Assembly: GCF_000189635.1 (NCBI RefSeq)
Contig: NW_002476226.1
Coordinates: 434,001 to 498,000, forward strand
DNA: 64,000 nt
Reading direction: 5' to 3'
From: Tetrahymena thermophila SB210
Taxonomy: Eukaryota; Ciliophora; Oligohymenophorea; Hymenostomatida; Tetrahymenidae
The notes below the pieces were generated by a model. The model was not told where the DNA came from and ran no database searches. It saw only the letters and a program-made list of their open reading frames with translations. Below, piece by piece: positions 41,811 to 62,283 of the stretch. How positions within the stretch are numbered: the first letter of the stretch is position 1; each line of letters begins with the position of its first letter. A program made the translations under genes and the position numbers.

Positions 41811-41891
41811 GACAATTTGTCCGAGTGGTTAAGGAGGAAGACTAGAAATCTTTTGGGTTTACCCGCGCAGGTTCGAATCCTGCAGTTGTCG
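41811..41891 (+). tRNA. tRNA-Ser (anticodon AGA)
   Basis: A complete class II tRNA. The acceptor stem GACAATT pairs with AGTTGTC (one G-U). The D-arm follows; the anticodon arm AAGA-CTAGAAA-TCTT gives anticodon AGA, reading UCU and, after inosine formation, UCC. A serine-type long variable arm with a GGG/CCC stem follows, then the T-arm GCAGG-TTCGAAT-CCTGC and discriminator G. CCA is not encoded and there is no intron. A strong pol III terminator follows directly. Confidence 0.96.
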
Positions 41892-48490: not shown

Positions 48491-49153
48491 ATGCTTAGTC
48501 TCACTTCATCGGATATACCGTTAGTTTATAAAAATAGTTTAGCAAAATTAGTTACAAGCCTTCCCTATGTAGATGCAGAAGCAGATGATAATATTAAGAT
48601 CAAAGTTCAAAGACTTATCAAATAAGAAATGGCTTTGATGGAAAAATAAGATTATTTATAAGATTTACCAATGCCAAAAACTCATTTATATGATTCACCA
48701 TTAATTTAAGAAGAACTTTAAAGAGTTAAAAATATGTAGCTTTTAGAAGAACCTTAACTACTTTAACTTCCTAACCTCGATTTAGATATTGCAGAAGCTA
48801 GTTAGTTAAAAGAATTCAATGATATTGCTAGCAAAATTAATTAATATAATAATATTAAATAAGTTAACTTAGAATTAATGCTTAAATATGGTCCTGAAGC
48901 TCACAAAATATTTATAGAATATTAAAAAAATTTTAAAAATGAATTAAGTAGCATGAACGAAAAGTTAAAAGCCTAAATTGAAGAAGTTAATTCAAAAAGA
49001 AAATTTGATTAAAGTAATACAAATGATAAATTAAGCAACTATCAATATAAAATTGGAAATTTGTTAAGAAGAAATGAAGAACTTGAAATAGAATGCCAAA
49101 AAATTGAGCATGAAGTTCTCACTTTACGTAAAAAATAGCTTAAATTAAATTGA
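48491..49153 (+). CDS. BCAS2: Pre-mRNA-splicing factor SPF27 (BCAS2)
   Basis: A single exon encodes 220 residues, the usual SPF27 length. SPF27 is a core subunit of the Prp19 (NTC) complex, which activates the spliceosome. Matches along the length: VTSLPYVDAEADDNIKIKVQ at the N-terminus, then LYDSPLIQEELQRVKN, NLDLDIAEASQLKEF, VNLELMLKYGPEAHKIFIEY (family: NLELM..G...WK.Y), then the coiled coil with QIEEVNSKRKFDQ and the terminal RRNEELEIECQKIEHEVLTL. Many glutamines, including conserved ones, are written TAA or TAG, and the frame ends at TGA 49151-49153, which independently supports the genetic code. Confidence 0.93.
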
Positions 49154-49764: not shown

Positions 49765-52700
49765 TCATTATTCTTACTTTTTATTAGTTTCTTACTTTAA
49801 AGAAAGCTAATTAATTTATTAATATTCTGTAATTAATTGCTTTATTTCGAAGCTCTGTGTTGTGTTAAATTTATATTCTCTGCTAGGCGATTCAAATATT
49901 AAGTGAATGAGCTTAGGAAATACTTTTGTTGCCTTTAGTTCTTCATATTTAAATTAAAATATTTACTCTTTAAATTCAGGCCCTAATACATAAATCATAT
50001 TATGTTTAATTCCAAGCCATACATTTTCTTTAAGATGCTAATTATCTCTAAGTGTATCCTTGTAAGTATTAACATAAAATTGAGTTACTCCAAATAACTT
50101 ATTTTATTTAATTGCATTTATAACTACTAACTATGTTAGCTTTAACTTTGATTCCAATATTTATCTGGAAGTATATTTAGATATGTCAACTATATTAGAC
50201 TCAGGATTAGGCTAACTTTCTATTTTTGGAGATTTTTGATTACTTTATGTTAGTAGTTTGCTTTTCAATAGGTCGACTTTATTTAAAATTGATTGATTTT
50301 TCTCTTTTATTTTATCAATTTCATCATTAATCTATAGAAGGGTTTAAGATATTCCTATTATCCAAAAAGTTTCTTCTTTTGAATTGAAAATGATATCAGG
50401 AAGTATTTCTTTCAGGGTATTTATAGGAAATTCCTAGCTGTTTCCTGAAATGCAACTTTCTTTGTTTTTAAAAATTTTTTCTGCTTATTATGGGTATTTT
50501 ATTAAGATATAGAGAGCTGAAAAGAGAACATAATTCTTGAAGGAGAGTTTATATCTTTGCTGTTGAATGTTTTCAAAAATCTAAAAGCAAATTAAATTCA
50601 ACCTGACAGGATCGTTTCTAATATCATATTCTTCTTATTAAGGCGAGAGCCACAAATATTTTTTAAAGACAATTGTATATCTCTCGCTAAAGTTAGAAAC
50701 AAATCTCTTGAAAGTTCTCATGATGAAATTTTCATTTTTACAAATCTCTGATGTATATTTCCAAAGAGGAGTATTCCCTTCTGCTTAGGAATCATTAGCT
50801 TCAGGGTTTGGTGTATCATCATTTTAACTTTCTTGTGTATTATCTTAAATTTAATTCTAACCACTTGCTTATAAGCTTTAAAGTAATTATTGGTTATTTG
50901 CTAATATAATATCTTATCTACTAGCTCTATTTCCATTAGTAACAAGTACTGCATTGTTTTCTAAGCTATTTTAGTGGGGAAATAGCATTTTAAATAATAA
51001 TTCATCATCATCTAAAACTCTAAAATTTCCTTTTGAATCTTTTAGAAATATTCTGTAATCAAGATAGGATTTTAATTTGATTCTTTTTGCAATGCTAGCA
51101 CAAATCTAAAAGCAGCGACTTTGAGAATTGATTTCCACTTCTTACTTGGAGCCATCTAAAAATTCAACATCAATTAAACATCTTTCATTTTAGCTCAGAG
51201 ATTCAGAGTTATAGTAAGTAATAATAGAGGCTCTTTAATTCTTGCTTTTCCTAAAAAGTTTAAGCATTTCTGATGACGAAAGTGTTCCAATAGCTGCTAA
51301 GCTATTACTTTTTGACTTTTGCCTAGTTTAAAATTCTTAACCTAAAGTGCTTATTCTCTTTTCTGAACTTTATTAGTTTGGATCTAATTTTTATTCTTCT
51401 TAATTGTTTATCTCTTCATCTTCTTAAAGTTTGCCATTATCCTCCATATTTTCATTTTCTTTTTATTCATCAGAGTCAGAATTAGAGTCAAAGTCAAGCA
51501 ATTTTTACATGTTTTTGTCTCCCTCTTCTATGTTAGTTTTGTAAGGAAGGTCATAAAAATCACTAGGCAGACCTAAATCATTCAGTATTTCAGGCATTAT
51601 AGATGACTCTTTAATTTTTTTCATGGTAAGAATCTACAAATTATTTTTATTTTTAATTAGATAAAGCAGCAAATATACCAAAATAAATAATAAAATAATA
51701 TAAAAAATGTATTCAAAAAAATATTTAATTCTAAAAAAAACTAAAAAGCAAAGAAATCTATCCACCTTCTTTAGAAAACTCTCGAAGTGTACCTTTCTTT
51801 CTTCAATTATTTTTGTTCTATGACTATTTAACCACGTCAGTCTTGTGCTGAAATGATCAATTTAGATGTCTTTTATATGATTCTTTATCTTTTTTTCTAA
51901 ATTAGAAAGTTATCTGTATCTAACCCATATTTTTAGTGTGATGTTTAATATTTTTATTTCAGCCACATAAACTGTAAATTTTTGTATTTTAGTTGTGTTC
52001 CACTCTTCAGTTCCTAAGATATTTACTTCGATGTTATCTAAGTCATTATCCATTTTATCTTTACGTAGATTATTTATAATTTTATCTATCTAGCTAATCA
52101 GGGTTTACTTTTTCTTTTCATCTTCAGCCATAAATGTTAAGGTATTGTTTGTTCCACTTATTTTAAAAAGATGAGTGAAATACTTCATATCTTCCACGGG
52201 TTTAACTTTACTAGTGTGATTTAGGTAAAGCCATGTTAATGGTTTAGTAGACTCTTCATCGATTCCTTCTTAAACCAATATTAAATCGTTAAGGAAAGAA
52301 ACAACACAACTTTTTTCTCCATCTTTGATCAAATATAATCTTTCTTCACTAATTTTTTATTTAAAATAGATTTAAATTTTGTTTATTATTATAAATATTT
52401 ACAATTTAAATTCTCTCTTATTCTCTATAATGTTTAGCTAAAAATTTCTAAAAGTTTGAGATAATTCGCAAATTTTCTGATTATCCAAATACTTTTGAAT
52501 TTATGAGTTGATTTATTAGTTAACCTAAGTGAATTATTGCAAGCATTTTTAAGTCCAAATATAATCCTTATGATCTGTTGGTGTTTTTTCCAATAAAGTC
52601 TTGAATAAAAGCTCGTATCTAGGTATTCTTTATACAGGCAGGATCAGTAAACTGCTTATATTATCATTTTCGCTTTCAAATTACTTTAAATAATCTCTGA

Positions 52701-53277
52701 TATCTTTTCTTCCTTCCTTAAGTTTCTCCAAATATTACATAGAAACTTCAAAATTTTACATGTAATCTACATAGATTTTGAAATAAGGAATCGTTACTTA
52801 TATATATTTATCAAATACTTCCTGATTATATAAAGTAACTGGATATTTTTTATTGTTAAATGTGTAAAAGCTATAAACAGTATCCGATCTTACTTTAATA
52901 TATTCTAAAAAATCTTAGTTAAGCTCTAAAATTTGTTAAATATTACTAAATATTTTTTAAATATCTTGTTCATTATTTAAAATATTCATCATTTAACTCT
53001 TAAGAGTATTTTAAATGATCTATAATTTCGATGTATAAGTTTTTTCAGTGGCTACTAATTCTTTTATGATATTGATTCTTGTTTTAGCTTTTTTAAGATT
53101 TTTTTGATATTTATTTTTGTAATGCTTTATTATGAAAACTTTTGCAATTTTAGCAAATGCCTTCTCTCTTGCATCAGCTATGTTAACAACTTCTTTTTCT
53201 TCACCCTCGGGTTTTTCTGAAAAAGAATCAACAACTTATTATATGTCACTTCCTTAGTTGTTTGGATTATCTTCCAT
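49765..53277 (-). CDS. RhoGEF with DH-PH-PX-FERM architecture
   Basis: A protein of about 1,100 residues starting MEDNPNNQGSDIQQ. A DH (Rho-GEF) domain at about 70-265 shows the first conserved helix, IIKELVATEKTYTSKLQII, and the signature helix LLILPVQRIPRYELLFKTLL. It is followed by a PH domain (about 275-375: YLIKDGEKSCVVSFLNDLIL, HLFKISGTNNTLTF). A PX-like domain follows (about 390-475: WVRYRQLSNLEKKI, ERKVHFESFLKKV). After an acidic/Q-rich linker comes a FERM-like unit. Its ubiquitin-like lobe shows DVEFLDGSKQEVEI and DYRIFLKDSKGNFRVLDDDE; the helical lobe shows RNDPVRLNLICFQIFENI; the PTB-like lobe shows GVTQFYVNT, WLGIKHNMIYVLGPEFKEQ and FNTTQSFEIKQLI. DH domains load GTP onto Rho/Rac GTPases; PX and FERM bind phosphoinositides and membrane or tail partners. 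Introns lie near 52341-52395 and 51630-51770. Domain calls are by motif, firmest for DH and the FERM C-lobe. Confidence 0.85.
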
Positions 53278-53789
53278 TAAACTAAAACCAATCGATTATT
53301 CTAAAATTAACTTTTATAAAACAAATTTAACAAATTGGATTTTGTGATATTATTTGTTTGTCAATTCAATTAATCTTTTTATCTCTATTAGATTTCAATT
53401 TTTTTCTATCTTGACCAAAAATTTTTTCTTATCAAAAAAAATCAGAAATGACTTATCATGAAAGCTATTGATAATTAGATATTTGCATCAAATGTTTAAA
53501 AAAATAATTCGAAGGAGTAAGAGCTATTTTAAACAGCTTTTTCTATGGACAAAAATTACTTTTCTTGTAATTATTATAACAAATTAGTTCAATAAAAATT
53601 TTATCTTTGACTTATTACTATGATCAAAAATTAAAGCAAATAAACTCAATTTCATATTTTTATTTTTTACTTCAAAATAAATGTAATATAAACATATGAA
53701 TATTAATCTAATTTTAAGCTAAAGCTTGATTATTTTAATAATTTGTTATCCATTTTCAACTTTGTCTTTTTTAAATATTCTTATCCTCA

Positions 53790-57556: not shown

Positions 57557-58617
57557 TTCATCCAAAATAAATATCTTTAATATATTTTTTTATCAAGAAA
57601 TAAAACTACCAAATTACAATTAAGTATTCTGTTTGTCTATTTTTGTATATTAATTCTACCTTTTACTCTAACTTTGTTAATTTATTTTAAAATAAATTAT
57701 AATTGCTTTCTATTTTTTTAAATAAGCTTTAATGTAAATTACAATCAGACACTTCTCTTTTTTATTTTTCAAGTCTAAAATTGAAAAAAAATTTAATTTA
57801 GTTTAATTTCATTAATATATTTTGCTATTTTAGAAAACTCGATTTTTTTTAGAGTCTAGTCTGTATTTATTAAAATACAATCAAAATAATTCATTTAATA
57901 AATTAATTAATTTCAAGCCAATAAATAACTTTTACAATAAAACAATTATTTAAAATTTATTCGAATGATAAGGATTAATAGAAAAAATAAATATTGTTTG
58001 ATTTGTTTTAAAAATTAGTAGTTTTATTATTAACCTTCTTTAATATAATATTTTAAAACTTGTAAATTTTATTTTAGATAGATTATTTACAAAATAAAAT
58101 TTAACGTTAAAAATTGGTAGTTTGCATTTAATAAAATTAATGGTAAGCCTATATCTTTAATTTAATTAATGTTTTATTGATAATTAATTAAAGCAGTTTA
58201 TAATATTTCAACAGATTTAATGAAATAATTGGATAAAAACTCAGAAAAAAAAAAAATTAAGATTGGTCTGAAATATATTTGCATGCATTACAATATATCT
58301 TTCTGAAAAAATATTTAATACTTTATGATTGATTGATTGGAAATGCTAGAGAATCAACTCAAATATTTAATTTATAAATTTAAGAGTTAGATTGAATGAT
58401 TAAGGCTAATCATTATAAAATTATTAAACCAAATCAATAAATTAAAGAAGAATAACTTCAACTTAAATTAAAGAGTACCTACCTAAAAGCTTTATAGATT
58501 AGATAAATAAATATATATACATAAATATATATATTATAGTTTAAATTAAGTATAAATTTGTTTACAAGAAGATTCAAATATAAATTAAAGGTTATTCAAG
58601 CAAAGAGTAAATAGTTT
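57557..58617. other. Intergenic
   Basis: About 1.06 kb between the SHIPPO-like gene and the kinesin, both on +. AT-rich with short TATA-type runs near 58510-58535; no gene. Should contain the kinesin promoter. Confidence 0.5.
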
Positions 58618-61600
58618 ATGAATACAAGAATTCAGGTTGGAATACGCTTGCGTCCATTCCTTGATACAGAAATTGGGAAAGGTTATTAAAATTCAAAGAT
58701 AAAAGTAGATAAATCTTAGGGAAAGATTAGCGTTTTCGATAACCACAGCAACAATAATAGAGTTTTTGAATTTGATCACATCTTTGATTAACAAACTACC
58801 TAGAATTAAGTCTATGAAGAGTGTAAGGTCACTGAAATGGTGGCTAGAGTTTTAGATGGTTTTCATTCAACTATATTTGCATATGGATAAACAGGATCTG
58901 GTAAAACTTACACAATGGAAGGTAAGCACGAAAGCGGAAATTATGTATCTGACGAGATGAAAGGTATTGTTGCTAGAGCCTTTGAGGATCTATTTACTAT
59001 GATACCTAAACTTAAATCATAAACAAATAAGGATTATAATGTTACTTGTAGCTTTCTTTAGATTTACAACGAAAAAATTTACGATTTGTTGAGTCATCAT
59101 TCTTAATTTGCAAAAAATAGTGATGTCAACAATACAGTAAATGCTAATTAATAAGGAGTAGCTGCTGCTGCAGCAGCAGGTATTGCTCCTTAAGGATTAA
59201 AACTAAGATGGAATGCTAGAGAACAATTTTAAGTAGAGAATTTATTTGTGTTTGATATTAAAAATCCTAAAGAAGCTTAACATTATTTTTTGCAAGGAGT
59301 TAAAAATCGTATAACAGCACAACATAAGCTAAATATGACTTCTTCTCGTTCTCATACTATTTTTACAATTACTGTGTAAACATACTCCTAGTAAGGAGCT
59401 CATGAAACAACATCAAAATTACAGTTGGTTGATTTAGCAGGTAGTGAGCGTATTTCTTTAACTGGAACTGAAGGAAAAATGGCTAAGGAATCAATTGATA
59501 TAAATAAGTCTCTCTTTACACTTCGTTAAGTTATAACAGCTTTATCAGAGATAAATTAAAACACAAATAACAATAATGCATTTAATTCCACATAACCTAT
59601 AGGGTAGACTGCATAGGGCTAAACATTAAGCACATAGCTACAGCAGACTTAGCAATTAGACTAAAATACAAAAATCCAACATATTCCATATCGTGATAGC
59701 AAATTGACTAGTTTACTCAAATAAAGTATAGGTGGTAATTGCTATTGTTTGATGATGGCTTGCATAGTACCTAATGATGCTTTTTCAGATGAAAATATTT
59801 CGACTTTATTTTATGCTTCGAAAGCAACTTACATCAAAAACTAACCTGTTAAAAATGAAGATCCAAACAAGTTGATCTTAGCTGAAGTTAACAAATAAAA
59901 TATTAATTTAAGGTCTGAGTTAGAGAAAGCAAACTCTCACATTGCATTTTTAACAGCAGCTCTAGAAAAGTCTGAGAAGAATAATGCTATACTAAAATAA
60001 AGGAATGCAGAATTACTCAAATAGCTTGAAGAAAAACCAGGAAGTGCTAATTAACCTAAAATAGACTCAGAAGTAAAAGATTTCAATCAAACAGCAACTT
60101 CATTTTAAGTTGGTGGTGGGTTATCAGAATAATTTATGAAAGAATAAATTCATTTTTAATAATAGTAAGAATAATTTAAGCTATAGCAACAAGCTTAAAT
60201 TCAGCAATAAAAGCAATTTGAATAATAAATGATGATGAAATTCTCCTAAAATGGATAAAAGCAAAATGAATAAGATCCTAGCGATGCTTCGACAGCTTTT
60301 AATTAAGCTCACAATTACGAATCTATCAGATAGAGCATACCCTTTACAAATACATAATATTAAAAGTAATAAACAGGTATTGGGTTTGTGAGACACTCTG
60401 TAGACACTCCAACAAATTCAAATGCTATTAAAAATCAATAATATAATACTAGCTAGTAATAAACTTAAGCTAACAATGAAAACAAGCTTTACTACACATA
60501 GATGGATTATGATAACTTTAGTGACAGACTAATTGAATCAATAACTCTTGTCAGACAGCTCCTCGAAAGTAACAAAGAACTTCGCTAATAAACTGATGAT
60601 TATAAATAAAAGGCACAATCTTGTGAAAGAGAATTATCTGATTTAACAGCTGAAAACTAAGAACTTAGAGAGTAGCTTGAATAATTTACATCATAAAAAG
60701 GAATTAAGGTAACTAGAAACAATTCTTCATCTAAAGAAAATCGTAAAAATTTGACAAGAAGAAATACAGCAAACGATGAAGAGAAAGAATATAATCAAGA
60801 TCTTAGTGAAAACGATTAAGTCTAATAAAATTTATAATTATAAAATTAAGAAAGTGATGCATAGAAATAATAAAAGCATGCTATTGGTGGCAGCATTCCT
60901 CCGAGATATCCTAAAAAGAAAAAAACGGACAATAACTAATACACAGACGATTAAGATATATAGGACATATAGGAGCTGGTCCACGAAGAAAATTTAGATA
61001 CTTAATAAGCTGATATGAGCATAAGCAGTCTTCAAAGAAATGTAAATAAAACACAAACACAACAATCATAAAGAGGTAAAAACAACAATAATGATGTTTA
61101 GAATAACAATAGCTATCATAATTAAACTAAAAATGAATTAATCCAAGAAATTCTAGAGCTTCGTCATAACTAGTTGATTTTAGAAAAGAAAATAAAATCA
61201 TATGATGCTGATAGAAACTAAATAAAATCTTCATAAGGGCAAGCTAATATATCTGCAGGAAATAATAATATTGTCAATTCTGGAATATCTTCAAATAGTG
61301 CAGGTAAAAACTAGTAATAAATGACTCCTAATAGTAAGTAAAATTATGTTTTTTATAGTAGCAATAAGAAGAGAGGATCTTCTCAAAATTAATAATAATT
61401 ACCAAAATCTAACAACAAAAGCTTGTCTATGTAACTCTAAGATGATTTCGCTCCTTCATAAACTCTCCACTCAACACCCATGACAGCAACAAGCAGCTTG
61501 AGTGGCACAAAAGGAGTAAATTATTTAAATAGAACATAGTAAGAATTTAATATAAACAATTCAAATCATCCTTCATCTACAACAGCAGCTTAAAATGCTC

Positions 61601-62283
61601 AACATTCAAGCTTAGATGTAAATAATGCAGCTTTATATACTAACAAGTAAGGGATGGATTCGATACCTACTAATTTTGGAAGATATACCTACTATTAGCA
61701 AAATTTTCATAATTTAGATAAGCTTTAATAACAATAAATGATTAAATTTTAACAACCTTAGAATTAAGCAAATTAACAAGAGAATTATAAATTCCTCTCA
61801 ACTGGAAGAAATACTCTTTCAAATATATCTAGTTAATATTAAGATTTTACAAATGAATCACCTATAATACAATCTAATGACCAAAACTAAAAAAGAGTAC
61901 CTAGCTAAGGAGCTCCTTCTGTAAAATCTAAGAGATCCAATAGTTTAACAAAGAATCAGATTAATCTATTAAATAATAACAATAATAACTAAATAAATAA
62001 TAGTAACAATAATTAAAAAGGAACTTATGATTTTTATCAAGGAAATATAGGTAAGGAGTAAATAATTATAGGAAACCCAAATACTGGAATAACATATACA
62101 AAGATTAAAAATGCTTATCCCAACAGTGGTAATAGCAATGGCAGTAATCCTGCAGCAATTTTAAACTCATCTAGCAATGATGAAAATTCAAATAAATTAA
62201 AAAACACTCAGCTAACTCAAGATTAAAATAAATTAAAAGGAAAAAGTGGCACATCTGCAAAAATAAATGTAGTTAATAATTGA
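58618..62283 (+). CDS. Kinesin with N-terminal motor and long Q/N-rich tail
   Basis: A single exon of 1,221 codons plus the TGA at 62281-62283. The motor occupies about 1-425: [12 protein letters not shown]-loop GQTGSGKT at 90-97, NMTSSRSH (switch I), LVDLAGSER (switch II), [33 protein letters not shown], and [18 protein letters not shown] at the neck. All nucleotide-binding motifs look intact, so an active plus-end-type ATP-driven motor is expected. Two insertions disturb the usual spacing: an A/N/Q-rich loop after IYDLLS, and about 45 Q/N/T-rich residues in loop 12, between helix 4 and PYRDSKLT. A coiled coil follows the neck (about 430-480), then mostly Q/N-rich tail with two short coiled segments ([29 protein letters not shown]). 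The subfamily is unclear; the domain order resembles kinesins used in cilia or spindle. Confidence 0.9.

Follow-up and report, generated by a model that had tools for sequence, protein, structure and literature searches.

A candidate Rho GEF with the domain order DH-PH-PX-FERM, and a paralog, in the Tetrahymena thermophila genome

FARP1 and FARP2 are Rac GEFs in which an N-terminal FERM domain is followed by DH-PH-PH, with no PX domain. The sorting nexins SNX17, SNX27 and SNX31 have a FERM domain close behind a PX domain. FERM domains of the talin/myosin type bind receptor tails and cortical proteins. The domains of FARP proteins are listed in the available part of PMC10830384, and an excerpt of PMC8280035 describes PX-FERM as a unit of SNX17, SNX27 and SNX31, with no GEF. 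According to the accessible portion of a 2010 survey, RhoGEF is rare beside PX, and RhoGEF and FERM_M are both listed as PX partners (PMC2837644). As excerpted, a 2007 survey reported that some Tetrahymena myosins carry a FERM or a MyTH4 domain but that none has the two in tandem (PMC2375034), and a 2014 survey reported MyTH4-FERM myosins in Tetrahymena thermophila, as the only known bikont, and suggested convergence (PMC3942036).

The sequence-only reading of this DNA had compared the locus with FARP and with PLEKH and myosin proteins, a list that missed the PX-FERM sorting nexins. In the open-licence literature (titles and abstract openings, among the matches listed), we found no RhoGEF with a PX-FERM tail, no paper pairing PX-FERM with RhoGEF, and none pairing a RhoGEF domain with TTHERM.

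Gene structure and domain order

We analysed a stretch of 64,000 nucleotides (the window) and found that positions 53277-49765 of its - strand, read in ciliate code 6, form a single predicted gene encoding 1108 amino acids once two introns are removed. These are the coordinates and the intron number given by the sequence-only reading. The ATG at 53277 is the first in frame, the TGA stop ends at 49765, and the stop-to-stop frame 49768-53394 (- strand) is open under code 6. The features of the gene, in window positions, are as follows.

52403..53277, - strand: exon 1, with the start codon, N-terminal tail and DH (amino acids 1-291 and two bases of codon 292)
52349..52402, - strand: intron 1, 54 nt, GT-AG, 7% GC
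51766..52348, - strand: exon 2, with PH and most of PX
51634..51765, - strand: intron 2, 132 nt, GT-AG, 15% GC, within PX
49765..51633, - strand: exon 3, with the PX end, linker, FERM and TGA stop
52507..53070, - strand: DH (RhoGEF), amino acids 70-257, Pfam PF00621 at 1.3e-35, with ELVATE and LLILPVQRIPRYELL motifs
52060..52404, - strand: probable PH, amino acids 292-388; the span takes in intron 1, which splits the first PH codon
51532..52032, - strand: PX, amino acids 398-520, span including intron 2; Pfam core 430-499, PF00787 at 1.8e-7
51190..51531, - strand: PX-FERM linker, amino acids 521-634, ~115 residues, low-complexity and rich in acid/Q/N/S
50983..51177, - strand: putative FERM F1 (ubiquitin-like), amino acids 639-703, Pfam RA_2 at 7.6e-5
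50287..50739, - strand: putative FERM F2, amino acids 785-935, DdMyo7_FERM at 9.2e-5 (824-921) and FERM_M at 0.0015 (826-931)
49813..50139, - strand: putative FERM F3 (PTB/PH-like), amino acids 985-1093, Pfam IRS/PTB at 0.0035 (1014-1093)

As both introns are in frame and free of TGA, an open frame by itself is no proof of either. They are much poorer in GC than the exons (24-28%). The splice model is best supported by a paralog at C169 (described below), which aligned straight over both splice junctions without extra residues. The stretch from PX to FERM, where a stop would have refuted the sequence-only reading, contains none, and the C-terminus of PX, the linker and F1 all lie within exon 3. 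Elsewhere in the window, a BCAS2-like gene (48503-49150, + strand; 7.3e-33) converges on the GEF gene, a large kinesin gene occupies 58396-62280 of the + strand (Kinesin motor match, 3.8e-90), and a tRNA-Ser with anticodon aga is found at 41811-41891 (+ strand).

The DH domain is full length. The match covered positions 1-180 of 180 of the PF00621 profile, and the protein keeps both ELVATE and LLILPVQRIPRY, which we take to be conserved DH motifs. In the PDB search, intersectin was the best DH match (9.6e-14), FARP2 stood in the third row (3.3e-12) and P-Rex1 was among the best. A six-frame Pfam RhoGEF search of the genome recovered the window DH at 3.8e-31.

The PH domain is less distinct. 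The excised piece gave a weak Pfam score (0.077). There was no PH match in the whole-protein Pfam scan or in the PDB profile search, and the corresponding piece of the paralog, scanned alone, gave no Pfam PH match. The DH alignments of intersectin and FARP2 extend into the start of their PH, and the PH region is conserved between the window protein and the paralog. Position, conservation and the weak Pfam score make a PH after the DH likely, if weakly so.

RhoGEF and PX are the only matches in the window protein that passed the curated Pfam cut-offs. With a PX profile made from both copies, the PDB search gave 10 sequences at E 10 or below, from CISK, nischarin, SNX27, SNX24, SNX16, KIF16B and SNX25, all of which we take to be PX proteins. 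The window PX has Arg-Tyr at 435-436 (R435, Y436) and R476, presumably at the places of PI3P contacts, which we take to be the 3-phosphate contacts of p40phox and CISK; these three residues were assigned, and a fourth contact, a loop lysine, was not placed. The linker that follows differs in length in the paralog.

We searched the genome from which the window comes (101 Mb in 445 contigs, 78% AT) for related genes. Two candidates were scored in the six-frame RhoGEF search and both matched (2/2): the window gene (C278) and C169:609130-609738. The latter lies in a second DH-PH-PX-FERM gene, at C169:608983-612896 (L007 4984-8897), whose product is ~30% identical to the window protein. Pairwise BLAST of the two proteins gave 8.4e-38 on the DH-PH side and 4.9e-36 over F2-F3. 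A genome search with exon 3 returned 4 matches, namely the window gene and three C169 pieces (F1, 8.2e-10; F2, 1.5e-14; F3, 4.7e-15). The C169 model consists of one long frame and, after an intron of 110 nt that lies within the PX-FERM linker, one exon; the product is 1267 amino acids from the chosen ATG, and the start is uncertain. Its Pfam matches come in the order RhoGEF (5.2e-40), PX, RA_2 (1.3e-6, above the cut-off), FERM_M (0.54) and IRS (0.0071). The C169 gene, reached separately through its DH and through exon 3, has the same domain order and is the strongest support for the architecture: the genome contains two copies of the fusion, ~30% identical to each other.

When the genome was searched with the paralog DH, three of the 4 rows fell on the two known genes (one on the paralog itself, two on the window gene) and the fourth was a weak match at C167. 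We dropped this third DH match (E 0.048); it overlaps a frame that by eye reads as RNase III/Dicer-like. Two RhoGEFs is a lower bound, as the genome searches score the best candidates only, exon by exon. For DOCK-type GEFs, DHR-2 lobes C and A matched neither the genome nor any of 14 controls, so their absence is not thereby demonstrated. None of the 14 controls gave a match when the genome was searched for the other families either (RhoGEF, FERM_M, PX, RhoGAP, CRIB, RhoGDI and MyTH4).

The order proposed by the sequence-only reading thus held for DH, for PX and for F1-F2-F3, with PH as its weak member. We conclude that the predicted architecture is real and well supported, as a variant of the Dbl GEF kind. 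Our preferred reading, to which we give a probability of roughly 0.6, is that one gene encodes a Rho GEF of the Dbl family, ordered DH-PH-PX-FERM, and serves Rho activation directed by lipid and by a FERM partner.

The FERM unit and its relatives

Each FERM piece of the window protein fell below its curated Pfam cut-off, yet the pieces come in the order F1-F2-F3. The Pfam check thus bore out RhoGEF and PX in full and the FERM pieces in their order but not in their scores. Weaker related models, Ras_bdg_2 and PH_SLA1, fell over F1 and F3, and a DPVRL segment of F2 is kept in the paralog. These matches point to three FERM lobes, in order in both GEFs and weak singly.

We found that the FERM region resembles those of talin and myosin VII, in agreement with the myosin/talin type assigned by the sequence-only reading. 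With a profile of the two FERM copies, 29 PDB sequences came up at E 10 or below, of which 21 are named as talin, 1 is MKIAA1027 (which we take to be talin), 4 are myosin VII and 3 are ribosomal S17. Talin-1 scored 2.9e-4 as a whole chain and 0.011 as the F3 piece alone, and F1 of myosin VIIb scored 0.018. None of the 29 was an SNX chain. The FERM alignment was also run once against viral contigs; of 283 pattern matches, none was confirmed.

These results bear on a reading in which the protein is a sorting adaptor like SNX17 or SNX27, with PX-FERM selecting membrane cargo and DH-PH reduced to a scaffold that exchanges nucleotide poorly or not at all. The PX-then-FERM arrangement is that of SNX17, SNX27 and SNX31 (PMC8280035, in the part available), F1 of SNX27 binds Ras and its F3 binds NPxY cargo motifs (PMC8083963, likewise in part), and the PX of SNX27 is among the PX-profile matches. 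However, DH has the top Pfam score in both copies, the FERM profile found talin and myosin VII with no sorting nexin up to E 10, and the linker parts PX from F1. We therefore regard an adaptor as unlikely, and favor a working GEF.

The genome also encodes MyTH4-FERM myosins, and we compared their tails with the GEF FERM. The MyTH4 search gave 6 matches (C60, C129, C437, C398, C200 and C154), five of which reach the cut-off. Neither GEF locus (C278, C169) was matched in this search, and the Pfam scans of the two proteins found no MyTH4. An alignment was made of five tails from MyTH4-bearing genes: C60, C129, C437 (cut short), C200 and C154; C398, with its tail split over frames, was omitted. 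The C60 tail, the only one of the five checked with Pfam, contains F1 (RA_2, 1.8e-10) and F2 (FERM_M, 7.4e-7). In phmmer it matched C437 (8.5e-11) and C129 (7.9e-9), and the remaining MyTH4 regions, including C200 and C154, were unmatched; FERM in C200 and C154 was assigned from the MyTH4 match and a reading by eye. Judged by eye, the tails other than that of C60 look like FERM. The C60 myosin was the sole row, and a weak one, in the FERM_M search of the genome, which indicates that FERM_M sees ciliate FERM domains poorly.

Aligned by hhalign, the GEF FERM pair and the five-tail alignment gave a local score of 38.9 (probability 45; E 2.2e-4 for one comparison), colinear from F1 to F3 over 283 columns. 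The best of 200 column shuffles scored 22.9 (0/200 above the real score), with the ten best covering 50 columns or fewer, and the reversed profile scored 12.7. Other comparisons of the same regions were negative. With a HMMER profile of the five tails, the GEF FERM did not stand out from shuffles: the window copy reached 4.9 bits (rank 4 of 2002), and the paralog FERM was outside the best 12 of the 2002 sequences. With the C60 tail alone, hhalign gave E 0.24, which is not significant.

The likeness to FERM might instead be due to chance or be partial, with an RA-like ubiquitin fold and a PTB-like fold, the latter carrying a helical insert, that form no working cloverleaf. The two non-significant tail tests and the weakness of the single Pfam scores, above all FERM_M in the paralog, are consistent with this, as are the single-sequence AlphaFold models, which were unusable (mean pLDDT 38 for the 485 amino acids of FERM, and 44 for the 194 of PH-PX). 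Against it are the F1-F2-F3 order in two proteins, the PDB matches to talin F3 and myosin VII F1, and the colinear alignment with the myosin tails, and we think it quite unlikely.

It is very improbable that neighboring DH-PH-PX and FERM genes were read through as one, as might be feared in a code that stops at TGA only and leaves 33 frames of at least 80 amino acids over 6 kb on both strands, because a single exon spans the junction between the PX and F1 and the fusion recurs elsewhere, in one long frame and one exon of the paralog.

Rho pathway genes and a possible mechanism

We found that the genome contains candidate partners for a Rho GEF. A search with yeast Cdc42 returned 22 rows, of which 3, at 58-71% identity, define two loci, C130 (L033) and C199 (L034). 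The remaining 19 rows, at 24-34% identity, were left unclassified, and two Rho-like loci is a lower bound. Spliced, the two products have 196 and 205 amino acids, end in the CaaX sequences CVLI and CTLI, and share 59% and 40% identity with yeast Cdc42. Each gene has four introns, in places that look matching by eye. Their PDB matches are Cdc42/Rac chains (best 60 of 86) and Rac/Rho chains (best 60 of 145), respectively. A Rho-family substrate for a Dbl-family GEF thus appears to be present. According to the accessible part of a 2020 review, Rho genes are missing from sub-clades of alveolates (PMC7600811); this genome keeps at least two Rho-like genes.

RhoGAP matched 1 of 3 candidates, as a half-domain (positions 80-147 of 148). 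RhoGDI gave 2 rows at a single locus. CRIB gave one match, at E 0.028 and just above the cut-off (C172; L036 2673-4467), which adjoins a PAK-like kinase frame and a VSKPENFARVHH stretch, the kinase and the motif both being read by eye. PX gave 36 rows, with both GEFs included.

For the GEF reading, these results suggest the following steps. From what is known of the family, the plain reading of a full-length DH is exchange on a Rac/Cdc42-like GTPase, and the DH-PH unit would load GTP on one or both of those in the genome. The Arg-Tyr pair and Arg 476, presumably at 3-phosphate contact places, make PI3P membranes the likely address, and PX may anchor the protein on endosomes or phagosomes whose membrane is rich in this lipid. 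For the talin/myosin-like FERM, a receptor tail, a cortical protein or a small GTPase could be the partner. By analogy with FARP2, the FERM might mask DH until a partner is met. Rho-GTP, and then actin changes through the PAK-like kinase, would arise only where lipid and FERM partner coincide.

A broader version of this proposal is doubtful, and we offer it tentatively. In this ciliate, all Dbl-type Rho activation might depend on two PX-FERM GEFs acting on two Rho GTPases, with Rho switching tied by architecture to PI3P compartments (phagosomes, endosomes). In addition, FERM might have been exchanged between the GEFs and the ciliate MyTH4-FERM myosins, which are thought convergent, so that GEF and motor share FERM partners.

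If the GEF reading is correct, then the Rho circuit of this organism would be very small, with two GEFs, two GTPases, one RhoGAP match, one RhoGDI locus and one CRIB-like kinase, all as lower bounds, and with activators tied to phosphoinositide membranes through their architecture. It would lie outside animals, fungi and amoebae, where Rho signalling has mostly been studied. The locus would also place a FERM domain in a non-motor ciliate protein. A second FERM family in a genome with MyTH4-FERM myosins would be a concrete source to test against the convergence suggested in the available part of PMC3942036.

Comparison with known systems

Like FARP1 and FARP2, the window protein is predicted to combine FERM and DH-PH in one chain. 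It differs from them in order, with FERM at the C-terminus, and in having PX. Intersectin and P-Rex are DH-PH GEFs that, with FARP2, gave the best PDB matches to its DH; their accessory domains are quite different from those found here.

With SNX17, SNX27 and SNX31 the window protein shares PX followed by FERM, and the PX of SNX27 is one of its PX matches. Those proteins have no DH-PH. In the SNX17/27 type, FERM follows PX directly, whereas here ~115 amino acids intervene and the FERM resembles those of talin and myosin VII. The type of FERM is the one found in talin and in MyTH4-FERM myosins, including those of ciliate class XIV (F3 matches talin-1, and F1 matches myosin VII). Unlike these myosins, the window protein has neither a motor nor MyTH4.
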